A stretch of DNA of 64,000 nucleotides from Protonemura montana (lineage: Eukaryota > Arthropoda > Insecta > Plecoptera > Nemouridae): the NCBI GenBank assembly GCA_947568835.1, contig CANOQG010000023.1, positions 124,001 to 188,000 on the forward strand, read 5' to 3'. The position numbers were made by a program, and so were the translations under genes. The notes below the pieces were generated by a model. It did not search any database. It had not been told where the DNA came from and was given only the letters and a program-made list of their open reading frames with translations. This document shows positions 1-39,159 of the stretch, one piece after another (position 1 is the stretch's first letter; every line of letters starts with the position of its first letter).

Positions 1-1304
1 ATTCAAGCCCGGCCTCGCTCGCCTCATTCGGGGTGGGTGCCCGTCAGCGTTGGGTGCCAAGCCGAGACCGGCACCTTAACGTCCGCCCTGACCCAGTTTC
101 GACAGGGGTTCGGCCGGGACATTTTTTTCCACCTCCGCACTCACCTCCAGCATGGCTCTAGAATCATTTGCCTGGTCTCGCTCACCCATTGCTTTTATGC
201 GGGGGCGAAACGTACCGGTACCCCCACGAACCCATAGGTTTCCGGGCTGGCATTCGAGCAAGGCTCGGTGAAATCTTGCAACCTGATATTTTTATTGTAG
301 CCTGTGATAGTGCGGGCCTACAAAAAATTCAAGCCCGGCCTCGCTCGCCTCATTCGGGGTGGGTGCCCGTCAGCGTTGGGTGCCAAGCCGAGACCGGCAC
401 CTTAACGTCCGCCCTGACCCAGTTTCGACAGGGGTTCGGCCGGGACATTTTTTTCCACCTCCGCACTCACCTCCAGCATGGCTCTAGAATCATTTGCCTG
501 GTCTCGCTCACCCATTGCTTTTATGCGGGGGCGAAACGTACCGGTACCCCCACGAACCCATAGGTTTCCGGGCTGGCATTCGAGCAAGGCTCGGTGAAAT
601 CTTGCAACCTGATATTTTTATTGTAGCCTGTGATAGTGCGGGCCTACAAAAAATTCAAGCCCGGCCTCGCTCGCCTCATTCGGGGTGGGTGCCCGTCAGC
701 GTTGGGTGCCAAGCCGAGACCGGCACCTTAACGTCCGCCCTGACCCAGTTTCGACAGGGGTTCGGCCGGGACATTTTTTTCCACCTCCGCACTCACCTCC
801 AGCATGGCTCTAGAATCATTTGCCTGGTCTCGCTCACCCATTGCTTTTATGCGGGGGCGAAACGTACCGGTACCCCCACGAACCCATAGGTTTCCGGGCT
901 GGCATTCGAGCAAGGCTCGGTGAAATCTTGCAACCTGATATTTTTATTGTAGCCTGTGATAGTGCGGGCCTACAAAAAATTCAAGCCCGGCCTCGCTCGC
1001 CTCATTCGGGGTGGGTGCCCGTCAGCGTTGGGTGCCAAGCCGAGACCGGCACCTTAACGTCCGCCCTGACCCAGTTTCGACAGGGGTTCGGCCGGGACAT
1101 TTTTTTCCACCTCCGCACTCACCTCCAGCATGGCTCTAGAATCATTTGCCTGGTCTCGCTCACCCATTGCTTTTATGCGGGGGCGAAACGTACCGGTACC
1201 CCCACGAACCCATAGGTTTCCGGGCTGGCATTCGAGCAAGGCTCGGTGAAATCTTGCAACCTGATATTTTTATTGTAGCCTGTGATAGTGCGGGCCTACA
1301 AAAA
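1..1304 (+). repeat. Canonical (K) S units 1-4
   Basis: Four 326-bp units (starts 1, 327, 653, 979) with no difference I could see between them. The diagnostic K features are TTAACGTCC, GGCTCTAGAATC, CCGGTACCCCCACG and CATAGGTTTCC. The same version makes up the right end of this array and nearly all of array 2. Confidence 0.93.
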
Positions 1305-3586
1305 ATTCAAGCCCGGCCTCGCTCGCCTCATTCGGGGTGGGTGCCCGTCAGCGTTGGGTGCCAAGCCGAGACCGGCACCTTAACGTCCGCCCTGACCCAG
1401 TTTCGACAGGGGTTCGGCCGGGACATTTTTTTCCACCTCCGCACTCACCTCCAGCATGGCTCTAGAATCATTTGCCTGGTCTCGCTCACCCATTGCTTTT
1501 ATGCGGGGGCGAAAGGTACCGTTACCCCCAAGAACCCATCGGTTCCCGGGCTGGCATTCGAGCAAGGCTCGGTGAAATCTAGCAACCTGATATTTTTATT
1601 GTAGCCTGGCATAGTGCGGCCCTACAAAAAATTCAAGCCCGGCCTCGCTCGCCTCATTCGGGGTGGGTGCCCGTCAGCGTTGGGTGCCAAGCCGAGACCG
1701 GCACCTTATCGTCCGCCCTGACCCAGTTTCGACAGGGGTTCGGCCGGGACATTTTTTTCCACCTCCGCACTCACCTCCAGCATGGCCTTAGAATCATTTG
1801 CCTGGTCTCGCTCACCCATTGCTTTTATGCGGGGGCGAAAGGTACCGTTACCCCCAAGAACCCATCGGTTCCCGGGCTGGCATTCGAGCAAGGCTCGGTG
1901 AAATCTAGCAACCTGATATTTTTATTGTAGCCTGGCATAGTGCGGCCCTACAAAAAATTCAAGCCCGGCCTCGCTCGCCTCATTCGGGGTGGGTGCCCGT
2001 CAGCGTTGGGTGCCAAGCCGAGACCGGCACCTTATCGTCCGCCCTGACCTAGTTTCGACAGGGGTTTGGCCGGGACAATTTTTTCCACCTCCGCACTCAC
2101 CTCAAGCATGGTATCTCTATCGTTTGCTTGGTCTCGCTAACCCATTGCACTTATGCGGGGGCGAAACGTACCGGTACCCCAGAGAACCCATCGGTTCCCG
2201 GGCTGGCATTCGAGCAAGGCTCGGTGAAATCTTTCAACCTGATATATTTATTGTAGCCTGTGATAGTGCGGGCCTACAAAAAATTCAAGCCCGGCCTCGC
2301 TCGCCTCATTCGGGGTGGGTGCCCGTCAGCGTTGGGTGCCAAGCCGAGACCGGCACCTTAACGTCCGCCCTGACCCAGTTTCGACAGGGGTTCGGCCGGG
2401 ACATTTTTTTCCACCTCCGCACTCACCTCCAGCATGGCTCTAGAATCATTTGCCTGGTCTCGCTCACCCATTGCTTTTATGCGGGGGCGAAACGTACCGC
2501 TACCCCAGAGAACCCATCGGTTCCCGGGCTGGCATTCGAGCAAGGCTCGGTGAAATCTAGCAACCTGATATTTTTATTGTAGCCTGTGATAGTGCGGGCC
2601 TACAAAAAATTCAAGCCCGGCCTCGCTCGCCTCATTCGGGGTGGGTGCCCGTCAGCGTTGGGTGCCAAGCCGAGACCGGCACCTTATCGTCCGCCCTGAC
2701 CCAGTTTCGACAGGGGTTTGGCCGGGACAATTTTTTCCACCTCCGCACTCACCTCAAGCATGGTATCTCTATCGTTTGCTTGGTCTCGCTAACCCATTGC
2801 ACTTATGCGGGGGCGAAACGTACCGGTACCCCAGAGAACCCATCGGTTCCCGGGCTGGCATTCGAGCAAGGCTCGGTGAAATCTTTCAACCTGATATTTT
2901 TATTGTAGCCTGTGATAGTGCGGGCCTACAAAAAATTCAAGCCCGGCCTCGCTCGCCTCATTCGGGGTGGGTGCCCGTCAGCGTTGGGTGCCAAGCCGAG
3001 ACCGGCACCTTAACGTCCGCCCTGACCCAGTTTCGACAGGGGTTCGGCCGGGACATTTTTTTCCACCTCCGCACTCACCTCCAGCATGGCTCTAGAATCA
3101 TTTGCCTGGTCTCGCTCACCCATTGCTTTTATGCGGGGGCGAAACGTACCGCTACCCCAGAGAACCCATCGGTTCCCGGGCTGGCATTCGAGCAAGGCTC
3201 GGTGAAATCTAGCAACCTGATATTTTTATTGTAGCCTGTGATAGTGCGGGCCTACAAAAAATTCAAGCCCGGCCTCGCTTGCCTCATTCGGGGTGGGTGC
3301 CCGTCAGCGTTGGGTGCCAAGCCGAGACCGGCACCTTATCGTCCGCCCTGACCCAGTTTCGACAGGGGTTTGGCCGGGACATTTTTTTCCACCTCCGCAC
3401 TCACCTCAAGCATGGTATCTCTATCGTTTGCTTGGTCTCGCTAACCCATTGCTCTTATGCGGGGGCGAAACGTACCGGTACCCCAGAGAACCCATCGGTT
3501 CCCGGGCTGGCATTCGAGCAAGGCTCGGTGAAATCTAGCAACCTGATATTTTTATTGTAGCCTGTGATAGTGCGGGCCTACAAAAA
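1305..3586 (+). repeat. Variant S units 5-11 (types A, A, B, C, B, C, B)
   Basis: Seven diverged units lie between canonical blocks. Units 5 and 6 (1305, 1631) are type A, with GGTACCGTTACCCCCAAG in place of the K palindrome. Units 7, 9 and 11 (1957, 2609, 3261) are type B, with GGTATCTCTATCG and GACAATTTTTT or GACATTTTTTT forms. Units 8 and 10 (2283, 2935) are type C, with CCGCTACCCCAGAG. B and C alternate, making a 652-bp dimer period; open frames at 1989-2582 and 2641-3234 are 652 bp apart and differ by one residue in translation, which shows how similar the dimers are. Confidence 0.9.
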
Positions 3587-5853
3587 ATTCAAGCCCGGCC
3601 TCGCTCGCCTCATTCGGGGTGGGTGCCCGTCAGCGTTGGGTGCCAAGCCGAGACCGGCACCTTAACGTCCGCCCTGACCCAGTTTCGACAGGGGTTCGGC
3701 CGGGACATTTTTTTCCACCTCCGCACTCACCTCCAGCATGGCTCTAGAATCATTTGCCTGGTCTCGCTCACCCATTGCTTTTATGCGGGGGCGAAACGTA
3801 CCGGTACCCCCACGAACCCATAGGTTTCCGGGCTGGCATTCGAGCAAGGCTCGGTGAAATCTTGCAACCTGATATTTTTATTGTAGCCTGTGATAGTGCG
3901 GGCCTACAAAAAATTCAAGCCCGGCCTCGCTCGCCTCATTCGGGGTGGGTGCCCGTCAGCGTTGGGTGCCAAGCCGAGACCGGCACCTTAACGTCCGCCC
4001 TGACCCAGTTTCGACAGGGGTTCGGCCGGGACATTTTTTTCCACCTCCGCACTCACCTCCAGCATGGCTCTAGAATCATTTGCCTGGTCTCGCTCACCCA
4101 TTGCTTTTATGCGGGGGCGAAACGTACCGGTACCCCCACGAACCCATAGGTTTCCGGGCTGGCATTCGAGCAAGGCTCGGTGAAATCTTGCAACCTGATA
4201 TTTTTATTGTAGCCTGTGATAGTGCGGGCCTACAAAAAATTCAAGCCCGGCCTCGCTCGCCTCATTCGGGGTGGGTGCCCGTCAGCGTTGGGTGCCAAGC
4301 CGAGACCGGCACCTTAACGTCCGCCCTGACCCAGTTTCGACAGGGGTTCGGCCGGGACATTTTTTTCCACCTCCGCACTCACCTCCAGCATGGCTCTAGA
4401 ATCATTTGCCTGGTCTCGCTCACCCATTGCTTTTATGCGGGGGCGAAACGTACCGGTACCCCCACGAACCCATAGGTTTCCGGGCTGGCATTCGAGCAAG
4501 GCTCGGTGAAATCTTGCAACCTGATATTTTTATTGTAGCCTGTGATAGTGCGGGCCTACAAAAAATTCAAGCCCGGCCTCGCTCGCCTCATTCGGGGTGG
4601 GTGCCCGTCAGCGTTGGGTGCCAAGCCGAGACCGGCACCTTAACGTCCGCCCTGACCCAGTTTCGACAGGGGTTCGGCCGGGACATTTTTTTCCACCTCC
4701 GCACTCACCTCCAGCATGGCTCTAGAATCATTTGCCTGGTCTCGCTCACCCATTGCTTTTATGCGGGGGCGAAACGTACCGGTACCCCCACGAACCCATA
4801 GGTTTCCGGGCTGGCATTCGAGCAAGGCTCGGTGAAATCTTGCAACCTGATATTTTTATTGTAGCCTGTGATAGTGCGGGCCTACAAAAAATTCAAGCCC
4901 GGCCTCGCTCGCCTCATTCGGGGTGGGTGCCCGTCAGCGTTGGGTGCCAAGCCGAGACCGGCACCTTAACGTCCGCCCTGACCCAGTTTCGACAGGGGTT
5001 CGGCCGGGACATTTTTTTCCACCTCCGCACTCACCTCCAGCATGGCTCTAGAATCATTTGCCTGGTCTCGCTCACCCATTGCTTTTATGCGGGGGCGAAA
5101 CGTACCGGTACCCCCACGAACCCATAGGTTTCCGGGCTGGCATTCGAGCAAGGCTCGGTGAAATCTTGCAACCTGATATTTTTATTGTAGCCTGTGATAG
5201 TGCGGGCCTACAAAAAATTCAAGCCCGGCCTCGCTCGCCTCATTCGGGGTGGGTGCCCGTCAGCGTTGGGTGCCAAGCCGAGACCGGCACCTTAACGTCC
5301 GCCCTGACCCAGTTTCGACAGGGGTTCGGCCGGGACATTTTTTTCCACCTCCGCACTCACCTCCAGCATGGCTCTAGAATCATTTGCCTGGTCTCGCTCA
5401 CCCATTGCTTTTATGCGGGGGCGAAACGTACCGGTACCCCCACGAACCCATAGGTTTCCGGGCTGGCATTCGAGCAAGGCTCGGTGAAATCTTGCAACCT
5501 GATATTTTTATTGTAGCCTGTGATAGTGCGGGCCTACAAAAAATTCAAGCCCGGCCTCGCTCGCCTCATTCGGGGTGGGTGCCCGTCAGCGTTGGGTGCC
5601 AAGCCGAGACCGGCACCTTAACGTCCGCCCTGACCCAGTTTCGACAGGGGTTCGGCCGGGACATTTTTTTCCACCTCCGCACTCACCTCCAGCATGGCTC
5701 TAGAATCATTTGCCTGGTCTCGCTCACCCATTGCTTTTATGCGGGGGCGAAACGTACCGGTACCCCCACGAACCCATAGGTTTCCGGGCTGGCATTCGAG
5801 CAAGGCTCGGTGAAATCTTGCAACCTGATATTTTTATTGTAGCCTGTGATAGT
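3587..5853 (+). repeat. Canonical (K) S units 12-18, ending at the L junction
   Basis: Units start at 3587, 3913, 4239, 4565, 4891, 5217 and 5543. All match the canonical version of units 1-4 by eye, with no decay towards the right end. The last unit stops at base 311 of the monomer, after CTGTGATAGT, and is followed directly by the head of L repeat L1. Confidence 0.93.
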
Positions 5854-5932
5854 TCCTCAATTTTAGACTTAGAGACTTGAAATAAAAAAGGGAACAAGCG
5901 CTTGCATGAGGGCTAACCGTTTTTTGACATTC

Positions 5933-5952
5933 GGGACTCGGGGGGGCATGGG
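5933..5952 (+). other. G-run motif fitting the four-tract quadruplex pattern (L1 example)
   Basis: GGG, four bases, a run of seven G, CAT and GGG fit the G3+N1-7 pattern four times over, and a long T run follows on the same strand. The intact motif recurs in the heads of L2, L3, L6, L9, L11 and L14. It is reduced below four tracts in L4, L5, L7, L8, L10, L12, L13 and L15-L24 by changes in the first or middle tract. Folding is inferred from the pattern only. Confidence 0.55.
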
Positions 5953-6092
5953 CTCATTTTTTTTTTTTTGTTTTCCCTTTTTGACTTTTTTCTCTTCAAA
6001 AAAAAAAATACTTCTAACCATCCGATCGTCTTCGTGATACATAAAAACGAAGCGGACAATCATTGCGCTTCGAACCATGTCTTTGCTTTTTC

Positions 6093-6120
6093 TTAATTCG
6101 ATCGGAGGCCGTCAATCGAA
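6093..6120 (+). other. Conserved head hairpin (L1 example)
   Basis: ATTCGAT and ATCGAAT are exact inverses enclosing CGG-AGG-CCG and a TCA bulge, making a short interrupted hairpin. It occurs in all L heads; the centre is AGG or AGA and both versions keep CGG opposite CCG. Start and end are accurate to a few bases. A role is unknown. Confidence 0.5.
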
Positions 6121-6809
6121 TCACTTTTCTAATTCAATCGAGATTCCCCCCATGCTTCCTGGGTTAAATTTCAAATCTTCAAAACGACCTAACGTGCTGA
6201 GTTTTTATAGTTAATGTAAAAATCAAAAAAGGTCTTGTAGAGAACGCTATTCCCTCGAACTGTTTTTCACTCGGGGGGTCTCGCTCAAAATTTTCATTAA
6301 TTTTGGGGGGGGACAAAATTTTTTTTTTTTTTTCATTATAAAATTTTTTTCTCAGGTTAGATATTGTTCATATTCTAATACACTCTTAAACACCTTGTTA
6401 CCTACTACCAATTCAATTTTCATCAATATCTAACGTGTAGAAAAGTTTTTAGACTCATTTTACTTTTTTGGTTTTTTTTGTAAAATTTTTAATTTAATAA
6501 TTCTTCATTAAAATCTCATGAAACTTTTTTTACAACTACATCTATGTACGTACTAGCTGCAGTAAAAATTTCATTCATTTCGATTCATTGCAATTTTTTC
6601 TAGAATTTTTTCAATTTCAAAATCATCAAAACACTTAGCAGATTTTTCTCAATCCTGGACTTAGAAAAGTTTTGAAAAAAATATTTTTTGATCTCACTCA
6701 AAATTCCTCCCGGCACTTCACTCCCCATTGCCCGCCGAGCAAATTACTTCTTTCTGGGAAAAAAAATATTTTTTTAATTTTTTTAAAAAAATTTTAAACT
6801 TTATATTTT

Positions 6810-6979
6810 GTGCGGCCGATCACCAAGTACCCGGCACTTGAACACTTTTCACTTTTCGAGTTGGTCGGCGACCGCACTCGGTTTTCGCCGGGCGCCAACC
6901 ACTTCCCGGTCGGTCGTCACTTTCGTCCGTCAAGCATGTCGGCGGCCGCACTTTGACATTTTTCAACTTTTTTATTTTT
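6810..6979 (+). repeat. GC-rich leader of the minisatellite (L1 example)
   Basis: Every complete L unit has this 169-170-bp leader (also at 9296, 11506, 13807, 15315, 17894, 20290, 40116, 41718, 43788, 46274, 47875, 49945, 51920 and in each unit from L16 to L23). It is a diverged double copy. The first part opens GTGCGGCCGATCACC and closes GACCGCAC with AACACTTTTCACTTTTCGAG inside. The second part ends with the CGGCGGCCGCAC typical of normal copies. The terminal copy after each array has the same AACACTTTTCA core, so each minisatellite is bracketed by related edge copies. Confidence 0.85.
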
Positions 6980-7539
6980 GTGCGGCCGATCACCAAGTCC
7001 CGGCCACTCTAACTTCTCGTCCGCCAACCAAGTCGGCGGCCGCACTTTGACATTTTTCAAATTTTTTTTTTTGTGCGGCCGATCACCAAGTCCCGGCCAC
7101 TCTCACTGTCCGCCAACCTAGTCGGCGCCCGCACTTTGACATTTTTCAACTTTTTTTTTTTTGTGCGGCCGATCACCAAGTCCCGGCCACTCTAACATCT
7201 CGTCCGCCAACCAAGTCGGCGGCCGCACTTTGACATTTTTCAACTTTTTTATTTTTGTGCGGCCGATCACCAAGTCCCGGCCACCCTAACATCTCGTCCG
7301 CCAACCAAGTCGGCGGCCGCACTTTGACATTTTTCAACTTTTATATTTTTTGTGCGGCCGATCACCAAGTCCCGGCCACTCTAACATCTCGTCCGCCAAC
7401 CAAGTCGGCGGCCGCACTTTGACATTTTTCAACTTTTTTATTTTTGTGCGGCCGATCACCAAGTCCCGGCCACCCTAACATCTCGTCCGCCAACCAAGTC
7501 GGCGGCCGCACTTTGACATTTTTCAACTTTTTTATTTTT
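6980..7539 (+). repeat. 94-bp hairpin minisatellite in L1, six copies
   Basis: Copies start at 6980, 7073, 7163, 7257, 7352 and 7446 (93, 90, 94, 95, 94, 94 bp). Each has a GC-rich core bounded by GTGCGGCCG and its exact inverse CGGCCGCAC, an inner CCGCC/GGCGG stem with a 9-nt loop, and then a T-rich spacer. The 90-bp copy (7073) is the CACTGTCCGCC variant that ends GCGCCCGCAC and so loses the perfect outer stem. Most copies carry a NotI site (GCGGCCGC). Confidence 0.93.
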
Positions 7540-7830
7540 GTGCGGCCGATCACCAAGTCCCGGCTACTCTAACACTTTTCATCTTTCGAGCTGGTCGGCG
7601 CCCGCACTCTTATCATTCTGTCATTCACCCAACGCTAACCGCTTATCGGCAGATGAACATTTTTTTCCGCCAACATGGTCAATCTCCACACTTTGCAAAA
7701 TTTCTGAAAATATTATTTTTCACAATCTCCAATATTCTGAGGTATGGCTGTCGGAAATCACTACACCAACTTTTTATCATTATTTTCCCATTTTTACAAA
7801 ATTTGCCAAAAACTTCTTACACGAATAACT

Positions 7831-20845: not shown

Positions 20846-22138
20846 TCCTCAATTTCAGACTTAGAGACTTGAAATAAAAAAGGGAACAAGCGCTTGCACG
20901 AGGGCTAACCGTTTTTTGACATTCCAGACTCGGGGGGGCATGGGCCCAAATTTTTTTTTGACTTCTTTTTTTGACTTTTTTCTCCCCGAAAAAAAAAGTA
21001 CTTCTAGTCATCCGATCATCTTCCCGTATCAAAAAACAGATGCGGACATTCATTGCGCTTCGAAACATGTCTTTGCTTTTTCTTATTTCGATCGGAGACC
21101 GCCAATCGAATCACATTTCTAATTCAATCGAGATTCCCCCATGCTTCCTGGGTTAAATTTCGGAAACTAAAAACGCTATAACTTTTTTGTCTTTCATAGT
21201 TAGGAGACGTTCTTATTATCAGCGTGTACAGCACACTTGCTGCTACTCTATTTTATTACTCTCGATCAACCCATCAACGTTTGCGCACTTTTAGGCTTGG
21301 TACAAAATTTTCTTACTTTTTAATTTTTTTCTTCAATCCTCGCATCGCGATTCACTTCAAACTTTAATACGTTCTGTATTCATACGGTCCGCACACTCTG
21401 TAATTTTTCGATCCATATCTAATGTTAACTTTTTTTTTTATATCAAATTTTATAGAAAAAAATTTTTCAATCTTTTTTTGAATATTCATTTTTCATATTT
21501 AAGAAACGAAACTTTTTTTACAACTACCTCTCAGTACGAACTAGCATCCCTGCAAAATTCATTTATCTCCTTTGAAAATTGTCTACGTTATGAATTTTTC
21601 AAATTCATTTTCTAATACGCAAATATTCGTAGTCCCATAAGAGCGCATGTTAATTTTTGGTGAAAAAAAAAATCACTAAATATTTAATAACTTTTTTGTT
21701 TTTAAGAGTTAGTGAACGTTCTTACTATCAGTGTGTACAGTTTACTTGCGGCTAGTGCCCTTATCAATCTCAATCGAACCCCTCGATGTTTCAGCACTTT
21801 TAGGCTGGGTACAAAATATTTTTCACTTTTCAATTTCTTTCTTCAATCCTCGCATCGCGATTCATTTCAAACTTTAATACGTTCTGTGTTGATACGTTCC
21901 GCACACTCTGTAATTTTTCGATCCATATCTAATGTTAACTTTTTTTTTTATATAAAATTTTATAAAAAAAAAATTTTTTAATCTTTTTTTTTAAGAATCA
22001 TTATTCATATTTAACGAACGAAACTTTTTCTCCAACTACATCCATGTACGGACTAGCAGCAGTAAAAATTTCATTCAATTCGCTTCATTGCAACTCTATT
22101 CAGAATTTTTACAATTTCAAAATCGTCAAAACACTTGG
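20846..22138 (+). repeat. L unit L8, truncated (body b, no minisatellite, no tail)
   Basis: The head and both halves of body b are present, but homology stops after ACACTTGG at 22138, where other units continue CAGATTTTTCTC. Leader, minisatellite, terminal copy and tail are missing. The last part of the unit is more diverged than the same part of other units (for example AACGAACGAAACTTTTTCTCC and CAACTCTATTCAG), as expected at an old array edge that takes little part in homogenisation. Confidence 0.9.
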
Positions 22139-22299
22139 AAGAAATCTTGAGGGTTCACCGAGAGAGGCTGGATAATACACCGGCCGATCGTAAGTGAAAA
22201 CTTAACATTTGCCGGTGAAAACTTCGCTCTTTTCCGGCCGGGCATTTCGAACTCCTCTCTGTGTTGCACTTTCAGAAAAATTTTAATTCAATCACGGTC
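22139..22299 (+). other. Unrepeated boundary segment between L8 and array 2
   Basis: About 161 bp found nowhere else in the window. It contains two GTGAAAACTT direct repeats (22194-22203 and 22215-22224), three CCGG-rich stretches and the 9-mer CGGCCGATC that also opens each 94-bp minisatellite copy. GTAAGTG at 22190 and TTTCAG ending at 22275 would bound an 86-bp intron-like interval, but no open frame supports a gene. It may be old flanking DNA left at the array edge or part of a different repeat. The right limit is uncertain by several bases because the S homology fades in gradually. Confidence 0.75.
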
Positions 22300-22549
22300 T
22301 ATTGTCTGCCCTGACCTAGTTTCGACAGGGGTTTCGCCGGGACATTTTTTTCTACCTCCGCACTCACCTCCAGCATGGCTCTAGAATCATTTGCTTGGTC
22401 TCGCTCACCCATTGCTTTTATGCGGGGGCGAAACGTACCGCTACCCCCAAGAACCCATAGGTTTCGGGGCTGGCATTCGAGCAAGGCTGGGTGAAATCTA
22501 GCAACCTGATATTTTTATTGTAGCCTGGCATAGTGCGGGCCTACAAAAA
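22300..22549 (+). repeat. Diverged edge S unit of array 2
   Basis: This partial unit carries many private changes (GTCTGCCCTG, GGGTTTCGCC, TTTTTCTACC, GGTTTCGGGG, GGCTGGGTG). It mixes C-like CCGCTACC with A-like CCCCCAAG and K-like CATAGGTTTC. It is the most diverged S copy in the window and marks the outer edge of the array. Confidence 0.88.
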
Positions 22550-23853
22550 ATTCAAGCCCGGCCTCGCTCGCCTCATTCGGGGTGGGTGCCCGTCAGCGTT
22601 GGGTGCCAAGCCGAGACCGGCACCTTAACGTCCGCCCTGACCCAGTTTCGACAGGGGTTCGGCCGGGACATTTTTTTCCACCTCCGCACTCACCTCCAGC
22701 ATGGCCTTAGAATCATTTGCCTGGTCTCGCTCACCCATTGCTTTTATGCGGGGGCGAAAGGTACCGTTACCCCCAAGAACCCATCGGTTCCCGGGCTGGC
22801 ATTCGAGCAAGGCTCGGTAAAATCTAGCAACCTGATATTTTTATTGTAGCCTGGCATAGTGCGGCCCTACAAAAAATTCAAGCCCGGCCTCGCTCGCCTC
22901 ATTCGGGGTGGGTGCCCGTCAGCGTTGGGTGCCAAGCCGAGACCGGCACCTTAACGTCCGCCCTGACCCAGTTTCGACAGGGGTTCGGCCGGGACATTTT
23001 TTTCCACCTCCGCACTCACCTCCAGCATGGCCTTAGAATCATTTGCCTGGTCTCGCTCACCCATTGCTTTTATGCGGGGGCGAAAGGTACCGTTACCCCC
23101 AAGAACCCATCGGTTCCCGGGCTGGCATTCGAGCAAGGCTCGGTGAAATCTAGCAACCTGATATTTTTATTGTAGCCTGGCATAGTGCGGGCCTACAAAA
23201 AATTCAAGCCCGGCCTCGCTCGCCTCATTCGGGGTGGGTGCCCGTCAGCGTTGGGTGCCAAGCCGAGACCGGCACCTTATCGTCCGCCCTGACCTAGTTT
23301 CGACAGGGGTTTGGCCGGGACAATTTTTTCCACCTCCGCACTCACCTCAAGCATGGTATCTCTATCGTTTGCTTGGTCTCGCTAACCCATTGCACTTATG
23401 CGGGGGCGAAACGTACCGGTACCCCCACGAACCCATAGGTTTCCGGGCTGGCATTCGAGCAAGGCTCGGTGAAATCTTGCAACCTGATATTTTTATTGTA
23501 GCCTGTGATAGTGCGGGCCTACAAAAAATTCAAGCCCGGCCTCGCTCGCCTCATTCGGGGTGGGTGCCCGTCAGCGTTGGGTGCCAAGCCGAGACCGGCA
23601 CCTTATCGTCCGCCCTGACCTAGTTTCGACAGGGGTTTGGCCGGGACAATTTTTTCCACCTCCGCACTCACCTCCAGCATGGCTCTAGAATCATTTGCCT
23701 GGTCTCGCTCACCCATTGCTTTTATGCGGGGGCGAAACGTACCGCTACCCCAGAGAACCCATCGGTTCCCGGGCTGGCATTCGAGCAAGGCTCGGTGAAA
23801 TCTAGCAACCTGATATTTTTATTGTAGCCTGTGATAGTGCGGGCCTACAAAAA
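22550..23853 (+). repeat. Variant and hybrid S units at the left of array 2
   Basis: Four units. 22550 and 22876 are type A. 23202 starts as type B (GGTATCTCTATCG) but finishes as K (CCGGTACCCCCACG, CATAGG, TCTTGCAACC). 23528 starts as type B (TTATCGTCC, GACCTAG, GACAATTTTTT), switches near 23660-23690 to GGCTCTAGAATC and ends with the type C CCGCTACCCCAGAG. The order A, A, B, C-like repeats that of units 5-8 in array 1. Confidence 0.88.
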
Positions 23854-26800
23854 ATTCAAGCCCGGCCTCGCTCGCCTCATTCGGGGTGGGTGCCCGTCAG
23901 CGTTGGGTGCCAAGCCGAGACCGGCACCTTAACGTCCGCCCTGACCCAGTTTCGACAGGGGTTCGGCCGGGACATTTTTTTCCACCTCCGCACTCACCTC
24001 CAGCATGGCTCTAGAATCATTTGCCTGGTCTCGCTCACCCATTGCTTTTATGCGGGGGCGAAACGTACCGGTACCCCCACGAACCCATAGGTTTCCGGGC
24101 TGGCATTCGAGCAAGGCTCGGTGAAATCTTGCAACCTGATATTTTTATTGTAGCCTGTGATAGTGCGGGCCTACAAAAAATTCAAGCCCGGCCTCGCTCG
24201 CCTCATTCGGGGTGGGTGCCCGTCAGCGTTGGGTGCCAAGCCGAGACCGGCACCTTAACGTCCGCCCTGACCCAGTTTCGACAGGGGTTCGGCCGGGACA
24301 TTTTTTTCCACCTCCGCACTCACCTCCAGCATGGCTCTAGAATCATTTGCCTGGTCTCGCTCACCCATTGCTTTTATGCGGGGGCGAAACGTACCGGTAC
24401 CCCCACGAACCCATAGGTTTCCGGGCTGGCATTCGAGCAAGGCTCGGTGAAATCTTGCAACCTGATATTTTTATTGTAGCCTGTGATAGTGCGGGCCTAC
24501 AAAAAATTCAAGCCCGGCCTCGCTCGCCTCATTCGGGGTGGGTGCCCGTCAGCGTTGGGTGCCAAGCCGAGACCGGCACCTTAACGTCCGCCCTGACCCA
24601 GTTTCGACAGGGGTTCGGCCGGGACATTTTTTTCCACCTCCGCACTCACCTCCAGCATGGCTCTAGAATCATTTGCCTGGTCTCGCTCACCCATTGCTTT
24701 TATGCGGGGGCGAAACGTACCGGTACCCCCACGAACCCATAGGTTTCCGGGCTGGCATTCGAGCAAGGCTCGGTGAAATCTTGCAACCTGATATTTTTAT
24801 TGTAGCCTGTGATAGTGCGGGCCTACAAAAAATTCAAGCCCGGCCTCGCTCGCCTCATTCGGGGTGGGTGCCCGTCAGCGTTGGGTGCCAAGCCGAGACC
24901 GGCACCTTAACGTCCGCCCTGACCCAGTTTCGACAGGGGTTCGGCCGGGACATTTTTTTCCACCTCCGCACTCACCTCCAGCATGGCTCTAGAATCATTT
25001 GCCTGGTCTCGCTCACCCATTGCTTTTATGCGGGGGCGAAACGTACCGGTACCCCCACGAACCCATAGGTTTCCGGGCTGGCATTCGAGCAAGGCTCGGT
25101 GAAATCTTGCAACCTGATATTTTTATTGTAGCCTGTGATAGTGCGGGCCTACAAAAAATTCAAGCCCGGCCTCGCTCGCCTCATTCGGGGTGGGTGCCCG
25201 TCAGCGTTGGGTGCCAAGCCGAGACCGGCACCTTAACGTCCGCCCTGACCCAGTTTCGACAGGGGTTCGGCCGGGACATTTTTTTCCACCTCCGCACTCA
25301 CCTCCAGCATGGCTCTAGAATCATTTGCCTGGTCTCGCTCACCCATTGCTTTTATGCGGGGGCGAAACGTACCGGTACCCCCACGAACCCATAGGTTTCC
25401 GGGCTGGCATTCGAGCAAGGCTCGGTGAAATCTTGCAACCTGATATTTTTATTGTAGCCTGTGATAGTGCGGGCCTACAAAAAATTCAAGCCCGGCCTCG
25501 CTCGCCTCATTCGGGGTGGGTGCCCGTCAGCGTTGGGTGCCAAGCCGAGACCGGCACCTTAACGTCCGCCCTGACCCAGTTTCGACAGGGGTTCGGCCGG
25601 GACATTTTTTTCCACCTCCGCACTCACCTCCAGCATGGCTCTAGAATCATTTGCCTGGTCTCGCTCACCCATTGCTTTTATGCGGGGGCGAAACGTACCG
25701 GTACCCCCACGAACCCATAGGTTTCCGGGCTGGCATTCGAGCAAGGCTCGGTGAAATCTTGCAACCTGATATTTTTATTGTAGCCTGTGATAGTGCGGGC
25801 CTACAAAAAATTCAAGCCCGGCCTCGCTCGCCTCATTCGGGGTGGGTGCCCGTCAGCGTTGGGTGCCAAGCCGAGACCGGCACCTTAACGTCCGCCCTGA
25901 CCCAGTTTCGACAGGGGTTCGGCCGGGACATTTTTTTCCACCTCCGCACTCACCTCCAGCATGGCTCTAGAATCATTTGCCTGGTCTCGCTCACCCATTG
26001 CTTTTATGCGGGGGCGAAACGTACCGGTACCCCCACGAACCCATAGGTTTCCGGGCTGGCATTCGAGCAAGGCTCGGTGAAATCTTGCAACCTGATATTT
26101 TTATTGTAGCCTGTGATAGTGCGGGCCTACAAAAAATTCAAGCCCGGCCTCGCTCGCCTCATTCGGGGTGGGTGCCCGTCAGCGTTGGGTGCCAAGCCGA
26201 GACCGGCACCTTAACGTCCGCCCTGACCCAGTTTCGACAGGGGTTCGGCCGGGACATTTTTTTCCACCTCCGCACTCACCTCCAGCATGGCTCTAGAATC
26301 ATTTGCCTGGTCTCGCTCACCCATTGCTTTTATGCGGGGGCGAAACGTACCGGTACCCCCACGAACCCATAGGTTTCCGGGCTGGCATTCGAGCAAGGCT
26401 CGGTGAAATCTTGCAACCTGATATTTTTATTGTAGCCTGTGATAGTGCGGGCCTACAAAAAATTCAAGCCCGGCCTCGCTCGCCTCATTCGGGGTGGGTG
26501 CCCGTCAGCGTTGGGTGCCAAGCCGAGACCGGCACCTTAACGTCCGCCCTGACCCAGTTTCGACAGGGGTTCGGCCGGGACATTTTTTTCCACCTCCGCA
26601 CTCACCTCCAGCATGGCTCTAGAATCATTTGCCTGGTCTCGCTCACCCATTGCTTTTATGCGGGGGCGAAACGTACCGGTACCCCCACGAACCCATAGGT
26701 TTCCGGGCTGGCATTCGAGCAAGGCTCGGTGAAATCTTGCAACCTGATATTTTTATTGTAGCCTGTGATAGTGCGGGCCTACAAAAAATTCAAGCCCGGC

Positions 26801-29800
26801 CTCGCTCGCCTCATTCGGGGTGGGTGCCCGTCAGCGTTGGGTGCCAAGCCGAGACCGGCACCTTAACGTCCGCCCTGACCCAGTTTCGACAGGGGTTCGG
26901 CCGGGACATTTTTTTCCACCTCCGCACTCACCTCCAGCATGGCTCTAGAATCATTTGCCTGGTCTCGCTCACCCATTGCTTTTATGCGGGGGCGAAACGT
27001 ACCGGTACCCCCACGAACCCATAGGTTTCCGGGCTGGCATTCGAGCAAGGCTCGGTGAAATCTTGCAACCTGATATTTTTATTGTAGCCTGTGATAGTGC
27101 GGGCCTACAAAAAATTCAAGCCCGGCCTCGCTCGCCTCATTCGGGGTGGGTGCCCGTCAGCGTTGGGTGCCAAGCCGAGACCGGCACCTTAACGTCCGCC
27201 CTGACCCAGTTTCGACAGGGGTTCGGCCGGGACATTTTTTTCCACCTCCGCACTCACCTCCAGCATGGCTCTAGAATCATTTGCCTGGTCTCGCTCACCC
27301 ATTGCTTTTATGCGGGGGCGAAACGTACCGGTACCCCCACGAACCCATAGGTTTCCGGGCTGGCATTCGAGCAAGGCTCGGTGAAATCTTGCAACCTGAT
27401 ATTTTTATTGTAGCCTGTGATAGTGCGGGCCTACAAAAAATTCAAGCCCGGCCTCGCTCGCCTCATTCGGGGTGGGTGCCCGTCAGCGTTGGGTGCCAAG
27501 CCGAGACCGGCACCTTAACGTCCGCCCTGACCCAGTTTCGACAGGGGTTCGGCCGGGACATTTTTTTCCACCTCCGCACTCACCTCCAGCATGGCTCTAG
27601 AATCATTTGCCTGGTCTCGCTCACCCATTGCTTTTATGCGGGGGCGAAACGTACCGGTACCCCCACGAACCCATAGGTTTCCGGGCTGGCATTCGAGCAA
27701 GGCTCGGTGAAATCTTGCAACCTGATATTTTTATTGTAGCCTGTGATAGTGCGGGCCTACAAAAAATTCAAGCCCGGCCTCGCTCGCCTCATTCGGGGTG
27801 GGTGCCCGTCAGCGTTGGGTGCCAAGCCGAGACCGGCACCTTAACGTCCGCCCTGACCCAGTTTCGACAGGGGTTCGGCCGGGACATTTTTTTCCACCTC
27901 CGCACTCACCTCCAGCATGGCTCTAGAATCATTTGCCTGGTCTCGCTCACCCATTGCTTTTATGCGGGGGCGAAACGTACCGGTACCCCCACGAACCCAT
28001 AGGTTTCCGGGCTGGCATTCGAGCAAGGCTCGGTGAAATCTTGCAACCTGATATTTTTATTGTAGCCTGTGATAGTGCGGGCCTACAAAAAATTCAAGCC
28101 CGGCCTCGCTCGCCTCATTCGGGGTGGGTGCCCGTCAGCGTTGGGTGCCAAGCCGAGACCGGCACCTTAACGTCCGCCCTGACCCAGTTTCGACAGGGGT
28201 TCGGCCGGGACATTTTTTTCCACCTCCGCACTCACCTCCAGCATGGCTCTAGAATCATTTGCCTGGTCTCGCTCACCCATTGCTTTTATGCGGGGGCGAA
28301 ACGTACCGGTACCCCCACGAACCCATAGGTTTCCGGGCTGGCATTCGAGCAAGGCTCGGTGAAATCTTGCAACCTGATATTTTTATTGTAGCCTGTGATA
28401 GTGCGGGCCTACAAAAAATTCAAGCCCGGCCTCGCTCGCCTCATTCGGGGTGGGTGCCCGTCAGCGTTGGGTGCCAAGCCGAGACCGGCACCTTAACGTC
28501 CGCCCTGACCCAGTTTCGACAGGGGTTCGGCCGGGACATTTTTTTCCACCTCCGCACTCACCTCCAGCATGGCTCTAGAATCATTTGCCTGGTCTCGCTC
28601 ACCCATTGCTTTTATGCGGGGGCGAAACGTACCGGTACCCCCACGAACCCATAGGTTTCCGGGCTGGCATTCGAGCAAGGCTCGGTGAAATCTTGCAACC
28701 TGATATTTTTATTGTAGCCTGTGATAGTGCGGGCCTACAAAAAATTCAAGCCCGGCCTCGCTCGCCTCATTCGGGGTGGGTGCCCGTCAGCGTTGGGTGC
28801 CAAGCCGAGACCGGCACCTTAACGTCCGCCCTGACCCAGTTTCGACAGGGGTTCGGCCGGGACATTTTTTTCCACCTCCGCACTCACCTCCAGCATGGCT
28901 CTAGAATCATTTGCCTGGTCTCGCTCACCCATTGCTTTTATGCGGGGGCGAAACGTACCGGTACCCCCACGAACCCATAGGTTTCCGGGCTGGCATTCGA
29001 GCAAGGCTCGGTGAAATCTTGCAACCTGATATTTTTATTGTAGCCTGTGATAGTGCGGGCCTACAAAAAATTCAAGCCCGGCCTCGCTCGCCTCATTCGG
29101 GGTGGGTGCCCGTCAGCGTTGGGTGCCAAGCCGAGACCGGCACCTTAACGTCCGCCCTGACCCAGTTTCGACAGGGGTTCGGCCGGGACATTTTTTTCCA
29201 CCTCCGCACTCACCTCCAGCATGGCTCTAGAATCATTTGCCTGGTCTCGCTCACCCATTGCTTTTATGCGGGGGCGAAACGTACCGGTACCCCCACGAAC
29301 CCATAGGTTTCCGGGCTGGCATTCGAGCAAGGCTCGGTGAAATCTTGCAACCTGATATTTTTATTGTAGCCTGTGATAGTGCGGGCCTACAAAAAATTCA
29401 AGCCCGGCCTCGCTCGCCTCATTCGGGGTGGGTGCCCGTCAGCGTTGGGTGCCAAGCCGAGACCGGCACCTTAACGTCCGCCCTGACCCAGTTTCGACAG
29501 GGGTTCGGCCGGGACATTTTTTTCCACCTCCGCACTCACCTCCAGCATGGCTCTAGAATCATTTGCCTGGTCTCGCTCACCCATTGCTTTTATGCGGGGG
29601 CGAAACGTACCGGTACCCCCACGAACCCATAGGTTTCCGGGCTGGCATTCGAGCAAGGCTCGGTGAAATCTTGCAACCTGATATTTTTATTGTAGCCTGT
29701 GATAGTGCGGGCCTACAAAAAATTCAAGCCCGGCCTCGCTCGCCTCATTCGGGGTGGGTGCCCGTCAGCGTTGGGTGCCAAGCCGAGACCGGCACCTTAA

Positions 29801-32800
29801 CGTCCGCCCTGACCCAGTTTCGACAGGGGTTCGGCCGGGACATTTTTTTCCACCTCCGCACTCACCTCCAGCATGGCTCTAGAATCATTTGCCTGGTCTC
29901 GCTCACCCATTGCTTTTATGCGGGGGCGAAACGTACCGGTACCCCCACGAACCCATAGGTTTCCGGGCTGGCATTCGAGCAAGGCTCGGTGAAATCTTGC
30001 AACCTGATATTTTTATTGTAGCCTGTGATAGTGCGGGCCTACAAAAAATTCAAGCCCGGCCTCGCTCGCCTCATTCGGGGTGGGTGCCCGTCAGCGTTGG
30101 GTGCCAAGCCGAGACCGGCACCTTAACGTCCGCCCTGACCCAGTTTCGACAGGGGTTCGGCCGGGACATTTTTTTCCACCTCCGCACTCACCTCCAGCAT
30201 GGCTCTAGAATCATTTGCCTGGTCTCGCTCACCCATTGCTTTTATGCGGGGGCGAAACGTACCGGTACCCCCACGAACCCATAGGTTTCCGGGCTGGCAT
30301 TCGAGCAAGGCTCGGTGAAATCTTGCAACCTGATATTTTTATTGTAGCCTGTGATAGTGCGGGCCTACAAAAAATTCAAGCCCGGCCTCGCTCGCCTCAT
30401 TCGGGGTGGGTGCCCGTCAGCGTTGGGTGCCAAGCCGAGACCGGCACCTTAACGTCCGCCCTGACCCAGTTTCGACAGGGGTTCGGCCGGGACATTTTTT
30501 TCCACCTCCGCACTCACCTCCAGCATGGCTCTAGAATCATTTGCCTGGTCTCGCTCACCCATTGCTTTTATGCGGGGGCGAAACGTACCGGTACCCCCAC
30601 GAACCCATAGGTTTCCGGGCTGGCATTCGAGCAAGGCTCGGTGAAATCTTGCAACCTGATATTTTTATTGTAGCCTGTGATAGTGCGGGCCTACAAAAAA
30701 TTCAAGCCCGGCCTCGCTCGCCTCATTCGGGGTGGGTGCCCGTCAGCGTTGGGTGCCAAGCCGAGACCGGCACCTTAACGTCCGCCCTGACCCAGTTTCG
30801 ACAGGGGTTCGGCCGGGACATTTTTTTCCACCTCCGCACTCACCTCCAGCATGGCTCTAGAATCATTTGCCTGGTCTCGCTCACCCATTGCTTTTATGCG
30901 GGGGCGAAACGTACCGGTACCCCCACGAACCCATAGGTTTCCGGGCTGGCATTCGAGCAAGGCTCGGTGAAATCTTGCAACCTGATATTTTTATTGTAGC
31001 CTGTGATAGTGCGGGCCTACAAAAAATTCAAGCCCGGCCTCGCTCGCCTCATTCGGGGTGGGTGCCCGTCAGCGTTGGGTGCCAAGCCGAGACCGGCACC
31101 TTAACGTCCGCCCTGACCCAGTTTCGACAGGGGTTCGGCCGGGACATTTTTTTCCACCTCCGCACTCACCTCCAGCATGGCTCTAGAATCATTTGCCTGG
31201 TCTCGCTCACCCATTGCTTTTATGCGGGGGCGAAACGTACCGGTACCCCCACGAACCCATAGGTTTCCGGGCTGGCATTCGAGCAAGGCTCGGTGAAATC
31301 TTGCAACCTGATATTTTTATTGTAGCCTGTGATAGTGCGGGCCTACAAAAAATTCAAGCCCGGCCTCGCTCGCCTCATTCGGGGTGGGTGCCCGTCAGCG
31401 TTGGGTGCCAAGCCGAGACCGGCACCTTAACGTCCGCCCTGACCCAGTTTCGACAGGGGTTCGGCCGGGACATTTTTTTCCACCTCCGCACTCACCTCCA
31501 GCATGGCTCTAGAATCATTTGCCTGGTCTCGCTCACCCATTGCTTTTATGCGGGGGCGAAACGTACCGGTACCCCCACGAACCCATAGGTTTCCGGGCTG
31601 GCATTCGAGCAAGGCTCGGTGAAATCTTGCAACCTGATATTTTTATTGTAGCCTGTGATAGTGCGGGCCTACAAAAAATTCAAGCCCGGCCTCGCTCGCC
31701 TCATTCGGGGTGGGTGCCCGTCAGCGTTGGGTGCCAAGCCGAGACCGGCACCTTAACGTCCGCCCTGACCCAGTTTCGACAGGGGTTCGGCCGGGACATT
31801 TTTTTCCACCTCCGCACTCACCTCCAGCATGGCTCTAGAATCATTTGCCTGGTCTCGCTCACCCATTGCTTTTATGCGGGGGCGAAACGTACCGGTACCC
31901 CCACGAACCCATAGGTTTCCGGGCTGGCATTCGAGCAAGGCTCGGTGAAATCTTGCAACCTGATATTTTTATTGTAGCCTGTGATAGTGCGGGCCTACAA
32001 AAAATTCAAGCCCGGCCTCGCTCGCCTCATTCGGGGTGGGTGCCCGTCAGCGTTGGGTGCCAAGCCGAGACCGGCACCTTAACGTCCGCCCTGACCCAGT
32101 TTCGACAGGGGTTCGGCCGGGACATTTTTTTCCACCTCCGCACTCACCTCCAGCATGGCTCTAGAATCATTTGCCTGGTCTCGCTCACCCATTGCTTTTA
32201 TGCGGGGGCGAAACGTACCGGTACCCCCACGAACCCATAGGTTTCCGGGCTGGCATTCGAGCAAGGCTCGGTGAAATCTTGCAACCTGATATTTTTATTG
32301 TAGCCTGTGATAGTGCGGGCCTACAAAAAATTCAAGCCCGGCCTCGCTCGCCTCATTCGGGGTGGGTGCCCGTCAGCGTTGGGTGCCAAGCCGAGACCGG
32401 CACCTTAACGTCCGCCCTGACCCAGTTTCGACAGGGGTTCGGCCGGGACATTTTTTTCCACCTCCGCACTCACCTCCAGCATGGCTCTAGAATCATTTGC
32501 CTGGTCTCGCTCACCCATTGCTTTTATGCGGGGGCGAAACGTACCGGTACCCCCACGAACCCATAGGTTTCCGGGCTGGCATTCGAGCAAGGCTCGGTGA
32601 AATCTTGCAACCTGATATTTTTATTGTAGCCTGTGATAGTGCGGGCCTACAAAAAATTCAAGCCCGGCCTCGCTCGCCTCATTCGGGGTGGGTGCCCGTC
32701 AGCGTTGGGTGCCAAGCCGAGACCGGCACCTTAACGTCCGCCCTGACCCAGTTTCGACAGGGGTTCGGCCGGGACATTTTTTTCCACCTCCGCACTCACC

Positions 32801-35800
32801 TCCAGCATGGCTCTAGAATCATTTGCCTGGTCTCGCTCACCCATTGCTTTTATGCGGGGGCGAAACGTACCGGTACCCCCACGAACCCATAGGTTTCCGG
32901 GCTGGCATTCGAGCAAGGCTCGGTGAAATCTTGCAACCTGATATTTTTATTGTAGCCTGTGATAGTGCGGGCCTACAAAAAATTCAAGCCCGGCCTCGCT
33001 CGCCTCATTCGGGGTGGGTGCCCGTCAGCGTTGGGTGCCAAGCCGAGACCGGCACCTTAACGTCCGCCCTGACCCAGTTTCGACAGGGGTTCGGCCGGGA
33101 CATTTTTTTCCACCTCCGCACTCACCTCCAGCATGGCTCTAGAATCATTTGCCTGGTCTCGCTCACCCATTGCTTTTATGCGGGGGCGAAACGTACCGGT
33201 ACCCCCACGAACCCATAGGTTTCCGGGCTGGCATTCGAGCAAGGCTCGGTGAAATCTTGCAACCTGATATTTTTATTGTAGCCTGTGATAGTGCGGGCCT
33301 ACAAAAAATTCAAGCCCGGCCTCGCTCGCCTCATTCGGGGTGGGTGCCCGTCAGCGTTGGGTGCCAAGCCGAGACCGGCACCTTAACGTCCGCCCTGACC
33401 CAGTTTCGACAGGGGTTCGGCCGGGACATTTTTTTCCACCTCCGCACTCACCTCCAGCATGGCTCTAGAATCATTTGCCTGGTCTCGCTCACCCATTGCT
33501 TTTATGCGGGGGCGAAACGTACCGGTACCCCCACGAACCCATAGGTTTCCGGGCTGGCATTCGAGCAAGGCTCGGTGAAATCTTGCAACCTGATATTTTT
33601 ATTGTAGCCTGTGATAGTGCGGGCCTACAAAAAATTCAAGCCCGGCCTCGCTCGCCTCATTCGGGGTGGGTGCCCGTCAGCGTTGGGTGCCAAGCCGAGA
33701 CCGGCACCTTAACGTCCGCCCTGACCCAGTTTCGACAGGGGTTCGGCCGGGACATTTTTTTCCACCTCCGCACTCACCTCCAGCATGGCTCTAGAATCAT
33801 TTGCCTGGTCTCGCTCACCCATTGCTTTTATGCGGGGGCGAAACGTACCGGTACCCCCACGAACCCATAGGTTTCCGGGCTGGCATTCGAGCAAGGCTCG
33901 GTGAAATCTTGCAACCTGATATTTTTATTGTAGCCTGTGATAGTGCGGGCCTACAAAAAATTCAAGCCCGGCCTCGCTCGCCTCATTCGGGGTGGGTGCC
34001 CGTCAGCGTTGGGTGCCAAGCCGAGACCGGCACCTTAACGTCCGCCCTGACCCAGTTTCGACAGGGGTTCGGCCGGGACATTTTTTTCCACCTCCGCACT
34101 CACCTCCAGCATGGCTCTAGAATCATTTGCCTGGTCTCGCTCACCCATTGCTTTTATGCGGGGGCGAAACGTACCGGTACCCCCACGAACCCATAGGTTT
34201 CCGGGCTGGCATTCGAGCAAGGCTCGGTGAAATCTTGCAACCTGATATTTTTATTGTAGCCTGTGATAGTGCGGGCCTACAAAAAATTCAAGCCCGGCCT
34301 CGCTCGCCTCATTCGGGGTGGGTGCCCGTCAGCGTTGGGTGCCAAGCCGAGACCGGCACCTTAACGTCCGCCCTGACCCAGTTTCGACAGGGGTTCGGCC
34401 GGGACATTTTTTTCCACCTCCGCACTCACCTCCAGCATGGCTCTAGAATCATTTGCCTGGTCTCGCTCACCCATTGCTTTTATGCGGGGGCGAAACGTAC
34501 CGGTACCCCCACGAACCCATAGGTTTCCGGGCTGGCATTCGAGCAAGGCTCGGTGAAATCTTGCAACCTGATATTTTTATTGTAGCCTGTGATAGTGCGG
34601 GCCTACAAAAAATTCAAGCCCGGCCTCGCTCGCCTCATTCGGGGTGGGTGCCCGTCAGCGTTGGGTGCCAAGCCGAGACCGGCACCTTAACGTCCGCCCT
34701 GACCCAGTTTCGACAGGGGTTCGGCCGGGACATTTTTTTCCACCTCCGCACTCACCTCCAGCATGGCTCTAGAATCATTTGCCTGGTCTCGCTCACCCAT
34801 TGCTTTTATGCGGGGGCGAAACGTACCGGTACCCCCACGAACCCATAGGTTTCCGGGCTGGCATTCGAGCAAGGCTCGGTGAAATCTTGCAACCTGATAT
34901 TTTTATTGTAGCCTGTGATAGTGCGGGCCTACAAAAAATTCAAGCCCGGCCTCGCTCGCCTCATTCGGGGTGGGTGCCCGTCAGCGTTGGGTGCCAAGCC
35001 GAGACCGGCACCTTAACGTCCGCCCTGACCCAGTTTCGACAGGGGTTCGGCCGGGACATTTTTTTCCACCTCCGCACTCACCTCCAGCATGGCTCTAGAA
35101 TCATTTGCCTGGTCTCGCTCACCCATTGCTTTTATGCGGGGGCGAAACGTACCGGTACCCCCACGAACCCATAGGTTTCCGGGCTGGCATTCGAGCAAGG
35201 CTCGGTGAAATCTTGCAACCTGATATTTTTATTGTAGCCTGTGATAGTGCGGGCCTACAAAAAATTCAAGCCCGGCCTCGCTCGCCTCATTCGGGGTGGG
35301 TGCCCGTCAGCGTTGGGTGCCAAGCCGAGACCGGCACCTTAACGTCCGCCCTGACCCAGTTTCGACAGGGGTTCGGCCGGGACATTTTTTTCCACCTCCG
35401 CACTCACCTCCAGCATGGCTCTAGAATCATTTGCCTGGTCTCGCTCACCCATTGCTTTTATGCGGGGGCGAAACGTACCGGTACCCCCACGAACCCATAG
35501 GTTTCCGGGCTGGCATTCGAGCAAGGCTCGGTGAAATCTTGCAACCTGATATTTTTATTGTAGCCTGTGATAGTGCGGGCCTACAAAAAATTCAAGCCCG
35601 GCCTCGCTCGCCTCATTCGGGGTGGGTGCCCGTCAGCGTTGGGTGCCAAGCCGAGACCGGCACCTTAACGTCCGCCCTGACCCAGTTTCGACAGGGGTTC
35701 GGCCGGGACATTTTTTTCCACCTCCGCACTCACCTCCAGCATGGCTCTAGAATCATTTGCCTGGTCTCGCTCACCCATTGCTTTTATGCGGGGGCGAAAC

Positions 35801-38800: not shown

Positions 38801-39159
38801 CAACCTGATATTTTTATTGTAGCCTGTGATAGTGCGGGCCTACAAAAAATTCAAGCCCGGCCTCGCTCGCCTCATTCGGGGTGGGTGCCCGTCAGCGTTG
38901 GGTGCCAAGCCGAGACCGGCACCTTAACGTCCGCCCTGACCCAGTTTCGACAGGGGTTCGGCCGGGACATTTTTTTCCACCTCCGCACTCACCTCCAGCA
39001 TGGCTCTAGAATCATTTGCCTGGTCTCGCTCACCCATTGCTTTTATGCGGGGGCGAAACGTACCGGTACCCCCACGAACCCATAGGTTTCCGGGCTGGCA
39101 TTCGAGCAAGGCTCGGTGAAATCTTGCAACCTGATATTTTTATTGTAGCCTGTGATAGT
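23854..39159 (+). repeat. Highly homogeneous canonical S block, 47 units
   Basis: 46 full units and one 311-bp unit, all type K. Forward and reverse translations of successive units are the same throughout, except for three single-base differences: a lost A in the run at 36563-36567, C to G at 36906 and A to T at 37218. No other difference was noticed, although silent changes in every compared frame could be missed by eye. This uniformity implies recent amplification, strong conversion, or a consensus or assembly effect. Confidence 0.92.

Follow-up and report, generated by a model that had tools for sequence, protein, structure and literature searches.

Array ends and junctions of satellites were reportedly treated by McAllister and Werren in 1999 and by Mravinac and Plohl in 2007. 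In a review of satellites under concerted evolution, the part drawn on here describes array centers that are better homogenized and array ends that carry divergent variants (PMC5615363). The satellite-like repeats analyzed here, from the stonefly Protonemura montana, consist of a short monomer (S) and a longer unit (L), and they resemble the satellites of that account in having array-specific interiors of monomer types A, B and C together with a divergent left edge. Compared to the same account, they show two differences. First, the right edges of two S arrays, A1 and A2, are without divergent monomers. Second, whole junctions recur with changed flanks, three kinds being present in six, two and two exact copies.

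In another study, satellite arrays of Meloidogyne are described, in the portion of the paper used here, as having junctions in conserved motifs, one of which is similar to a CENP-B box (PMC3694981). Abrupt joins of unrelated repeats and a mosaic order of repeats are common to that system and to the present one. Unlike the boxes described in that portion, no such motif is prominent here, the right ends of S arrays falling at positions S326, S108, S111 and about S240, and junctions guided by a motif of the Meloidogyne type were not found at these right ends.

A third comparison is offered by the intergenic spacers of Lepidoptera, which carry satellites linked to rDNA according to the available part of a further study (PMC10257491). 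The likeness lies in contig C5, where a 5.8S rRNA gene sits between blocks made up of L, bridge and S. Unlike the spacer satellites of that part, contig C32 consists of 248 kb of L and S, and its 64-kb window has no match to an Rfam family at the gathering score.

The literature search returned no paper tied to these L and S repeats. Edges that are conserved around a homogenized interior, together with flanks that are mosaic, make up satellite behavior of a known kind; the detail is unusual. Satellite junctions in multiple copies have seldom been observed, and recurrent junctions allow the age of a join to be told from the age of its neighbors and the events in a repeat field to be ordered.

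Organization of the repeats

The window, the whole stretch of 64,000 nucleotides analyzed here, corresponds to positions 124001-188000 of C32, a contig of 248,280 bp that was covered in full, in an assembly of 258,480,905 bp and 34 contigs. C32 is made up of S arrays, with a monomer of 326 bp, in alternation with fields of L units, and both its start and its finish lie inside S arrays. On this contig 98 L heads were recognized. From one recognized head to the next, the L units measure 1.1-2.6 kb, save in four longer intervals, two of which contain S arrays; their tails carry 94-bp subrepeats. At C32:87945-97013, two recognized heads are separated by 9,069 bp, far above the size of an L unit, and this interval may contain other sequence.

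Positions in S are numbered so that the final base ahead of the junction termed J1 is S326, the base that the original prediction had numbered 311. For the two S arrays of the window, TRF reported a period of 326 with 18.0 and 51.7 copies. Open reading frames of at least 130 amino acids number 59 in the window, and 57 of them lie inside the S arrays, most recurring each 326 bp; they were taken, without a family search, as chance frames. The coordinates of the features are collected in Table 1.

Table 1. Features of the two S arrays and their junctions (window positions unless a contig is named)
Feature	Position	Strand	Evidence or remark
A1 start	C32:121473, outside window		monomer blast
S array 1 (A1), right part	1..5853	+	TRF period 326, monomer blast on C32; ends in 7 type-B monomers
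Junction J1 copy 1, S326 to L head	5853..5854	+	TRF end 5853 and letter comparison
115-bp L-head tract, J1 copy 1	5854..5968	+	exact match to J1 copy 2 and to units C32:80218 and C32:231826 (T1 class)
L1, unit following J1 copy 1	5854..7830	+	from base 255 class of units such as C32:99084
Bridge unit left of A2	20846..22303	+	about 1,298 bp resemble L; 22143-22303 (161 bp) is own sequence
Left junction, L-bridge-S96	22303..22304	+	one of six identical places in the assembly
S array 2 (A2)	22304..39159	+	TRF, monomer blast, monomer typing
Junction J1 copy 2, S326 to L head	39159..39160	+	TRF end 39159 and letter comparison
115-bp L-head tract, J1 copy 2	39160..39274	+	exact match to J1 copy 1
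L9, unit following J1 copy 2	39160..40760	+	from base 116 class of C32:68228, 84462, 111927 and 214562; later other classes

The S repeats form long head-to-tail tandem arrays, and the 255 full monomers typed in seven arrays comprise 35 distinct sequences. The interiors are homogenized in an array-specific manner: A0 is chiefly of type A, A3 is chiefly of type C, and type B (55 of the 255 full monomers) was found among the seven arrays in A1 and A2 only. Inside A2, a run of 39 monomers (12.7 kb) is identical. The first partial monomer at the left edges is divergent (about 94%), and the monomer types E, F, G and C at these edges are shared between arrays. On the right, by comparison, A1 and A2 are of type B up to the final base. 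Since no other of the seven arrays has type B, the right parts of A1 and A2, J1 included, are probably common by descent. The absence of divergent monomers suggests, in turn, that the right edge of both arrays was cut secondarily. A1 contains an internal duplication (C32:122030-129201, which is window 1-5201 and the sequence upstream), in which the monomer types F K D L D M come again in this order 11 monomers (3,586 bp) on.

Two exact copies of one junction

Both S arrays of the window were originally predicted to stop at base 311 of the monomer and to enter L at one and the same point. The coordinates agree with this (5853 modulo 326 is 311), and the letters of window 5850-5870 are identical to those of 39156-39176. 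The two joins lie 33,306 bp apart. From each of them, identity of the two copies runs for 1,941 bp leftward in S and for 115 bp rightward in L, with differences beyond. Joins between L units read AACT/TCCTC and the S side reads TAGT/TCCTC, with one T in common, leaving the J1 break uncertain by 1 bp; the position at which L "starts" is a convention.

The assembly was also searched for other joins of S and L, as had been proposed, and the J1 break was found in two places only, both on C32. A 33-base pattern spanning J1 (at most 3 mismatches) matched assembly-wide at C32:129842 and C32:163148, with 0 matches for the control. A second pattern, in which the monomer end is followed by any base except G, likewise matched the two J1 places and no other in the assembly, and its reversed control gave 1 match.

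The L head that follows J1 is of a rare class. The exact 115-mer is present in 4 of the 98 L heads of C32, two of them being the J1 units, and the first 88 bp common to L1 and L9 open 6 of the 98, the J1 units again included. This classing of heads covered C32; similar L heads are also present on C26. Beyond the head, L1 and L9 had been described as different L subtypes, and in their alignment 61 of 1,599 positions are substituted, with a further 380 gap columns. L1 is the same as the two T1 units C32:80218 and C32:231826 through base 254, and T1 can last be distinguished from the next class at bases 12, 54 and 58, which places the switch within 59-254. In L9, the switch away from T1 falls within bases 89-115.

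Several comparisons addressed the composition of these two units. In L9 and in L1, 10 of 10 windows (106 bp each) match other L units perfectly, and the matching units vary along the unit. Triplet permutation tests, for which the parents were chosen after inspection, gave, for L9, p 0.0002 in two choices of parent pair and p 0.098 in a third; for L1, they gave p 0.005 and 0.0036. In a scan of 98 units, a second parent lowered the differences of L9 from 22 to 11, the sixth largest gain; L1 differed at 4 positions from the closest single parent, and a division between two parents saved 3 (4 to 1). Control triplets on other units with a T1 head identified u37 and u59 as mosaic and u96 as non-mosaic. 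The mosaic controls imply that L units generally exchange sequence in this field and that mosaicism is no peculiarity of the junction. Traces of exchange in the flanking L field are found in L9, which is a mosaic, and in other mosaic units. L1, with few sites supporting its switch, appears to be a mosaic weakly. The unit lengths from L1 on are 1,977, 2,210 and 2,301, parallel to the order 1,882, 2,210 and 2,300 at C32:99084-105475.

Left junction and other right ends

The left junction, at which L and bridge meet S96 and which the original prediction does not mention, is present in three identical copies on C32, two on C5 and one on C26. The bridge unit is 1,458 bp long, and its L-like part is 92-96% identical to other L units among the best matches shown. 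Its 161 bp of own sequence have exact copies only at the six left junctions. Five bridge units compared over their full length show 3-12 pairwise differences, with 3 between those of A1 and A2. Upstream of the bridge, the L units vary by array: the point of divergence between A1 and A2 lies some 40 bp above the bridge, and A1 and C5b remain identical for about 470 bp beyond it.

One more relative of the bridge (72%) lies on the chromosome-sized scaffold C11. At C11:211501-213000, L-like sequence is followed by this bridge and by S from about S92 (86-89%), for slightly more than two monomers. Because this diverged L-bridge-S has the same order, it suggests that the left edge is old and that the right edges are later and several. 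S may have arisen near this stretch of C11.

At least ten close S arrays were located (C32 has four, C26 two, C5 a short one and two larger ones, and C19 one), as counted from the stretches read and the matches listed, and further arrays are possible. The right end is readable in six of these ten and is of four kinds. First, A1 and A2 end at S326 and continue with an L head. Second, A0 on C32 and the first C26 array end at S108 and continue with an L tail. Third, one C5 array ends at S111, and fourth, the short C5 array ends at about S240, each continuing with sequence without an L match. In the other four, the right end is unreadable, since the contig runs out (A3, the second C26 array and C19) or an N gap intervenes (one C5 array).

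The join of S108 and L is present at exactly two places in the genome, C32:36072 and C26:19732, with GACC common to S and L. Its copies are identical over 1,732 bp read leftward and over 62 bp rightward, past which they differ by dispersed substitutions and by one indel of roughly 94 bp. As aligned, the two flanks are close relatives, and the case is a weaker one than that of J1.

Origin of the two J1 copies

The two J1 joins are, with good probability, copies of one event, the junction having been copied and its right flank exchanged. This reading is supported by the same break, the 1,941 bp of identical S, the private type B and the rare 115-bp L head. The duplication of one junction with later exchange of the flank was among the possibilities raised in the original prediction, and it accounts well for a tract of a rare class that leads into two different L classes. 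Parallel cases are provided by the S108 join, found twice, and by the left junction, found six times with unlike upstream L.

The following course of events would produce this arrangement. An S array within an L field may have been stripped of its older right edge by the joining of an interior S monomer to an L head of the T1 class, with a homology of at most 1 bp and thus in the manner of end joining. S would have been homogenized to type B as far as J1. Misaligned recombination between L units, by unequal crossing over or by conversion, would have duplicated the block of bridge, S and J1, and an exchange inside the first L unit, within the switch intervals of L9 and L1, would have set the same J1 before L units of different slots. 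We infer this order from the sequences compared here, in which either crossing over or conversion could have acted. On this view, the recombining L array carries the S block and its edges along as a passenger. The ancestral form to be expected, J1 leading into a complete T1 unit, was not found.

A bolder extension, which we consider rather improbable, is that the G7 and T12-13 runs of the L head (bases 87-116) are a recombination hot spot and that S blocks with fixed edges are re-plugged as cassettes through the rDNA-linked L field. The switch windows overlap near these bases, at 89-115 in L9, 59-254 in L1 and 81-99 in unit C32:174965.

Misassembly, by which a single real junction would have been placed twice, is an unlikely source of the two copies. 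The 39 identical monomers of A2 are hard to assemble and the termini of C32 fall within S arrays, but the J1 copies can be told apart at either end of their shared tract, and joins are repeated likewise elsewhere, that of S108 on two contigs and the left junction on three contigs that include a chromosome-sized one. The assembly is also easily checked because the junction copies differ at short range: a single read of about 2.1 kb across J1 would distinguish them.

A preferred end point, that is, a fragile or nicked site at S 326/1 or at the L head used independently by both arrays, is very unlikely, and the history given above does without it. The use of the same L point at both joins would be in keeping with such a site, as would an imperfect inverted repeat centered on the S break (z -2.17; equally good folding in 9 of 200 shuffles). 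However, an equally good inverted repeat is found at 14 of the 326 S positions, and the J1 site ranks 50 of 326 by folding energy. The preferred insertion or end point that had been suggested also disagrees with the readable right ends elsewhere, at S108 (two copies, joined to a different part of L), S111 and about S240. Furthermore, independent events leave the rare L head and the type-B monomers common to both arrays unexplained. S carries a motif similar to the CENP-B box that does not stand out from shuffles and lies away from J1.

Two candidate structures at the junction were considered. A CENP-B-box-like motif at J1 was rejected: with the CENP-B-box consensus, the best match in S was 8 of 9 at S32-48, a score matched by 21 of 300 shuffles. 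A cruciform at the S break was the other candidate, and the inverted-repeat figures given above lend it weak support.

A plain recent copy of the entire region, flanks included, is hardly credible, for near-identical arrays, bridge units and junctions are what it would give, but, judged by alignment, it is already contradicted by the unlike flanks, both right of J1, where L1 and L9 differ as described, and above the bridge, where the L units of A1 and A2 soon diverge. The original prediction that the region is not simply a recent copy holds as worded, the L flanks being different; the S array with both of its junctions, on the other hand, does look copied.

Linkage to rDNA and diverged relatives of S

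A 5.8S rRNA gene was identified at C5:17449670-17449824 on the minus strand (112.4 bits), with L-bridge-S blocks on both sides. Since the gene lies between such blocks, the L and S repeats are linked to rDNA, at least on C5. Scans of pieces of C5 did not reveal 18S or 28S genes; an N gap is present in these pieces.

Sequences of the S family extend beyond the close arrays. One S-derived pattern matched the assembly at 490 forward and 62 reverse places, 160 of them on C32, and a second matched at 270 forward and 116 reverse places. As candidates for a single-copy ancestor of S, diverged relatives were read at C5:18.94 Mb, C15:5.70 Mb and C16:28.34 Mb (82-89%), and further relatives at C5:17.464 Mb (89-94%) and at C11:211.5-213.0 and 226.5-228.0 kb (86-89%). 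The J1 break was not found among the diverged relatives in the stretches read on C5, C15, C16 and C11.

On the minus strand of C11:227391-293417, there are many S-family matches among those listed, with a spacing that is often a multiple of about 326 bp; the 1.5 kb read on C11 (226.5-228.0 kb) contain S at 86-89%. At C5:18.94 Mb, an open reading frame with an ISXO2-like transposase domain (PF12762, 58.3 bits against a cut-off of 27) occupies positions 161-1357 of the piece examined, beside a diverged S fragment.
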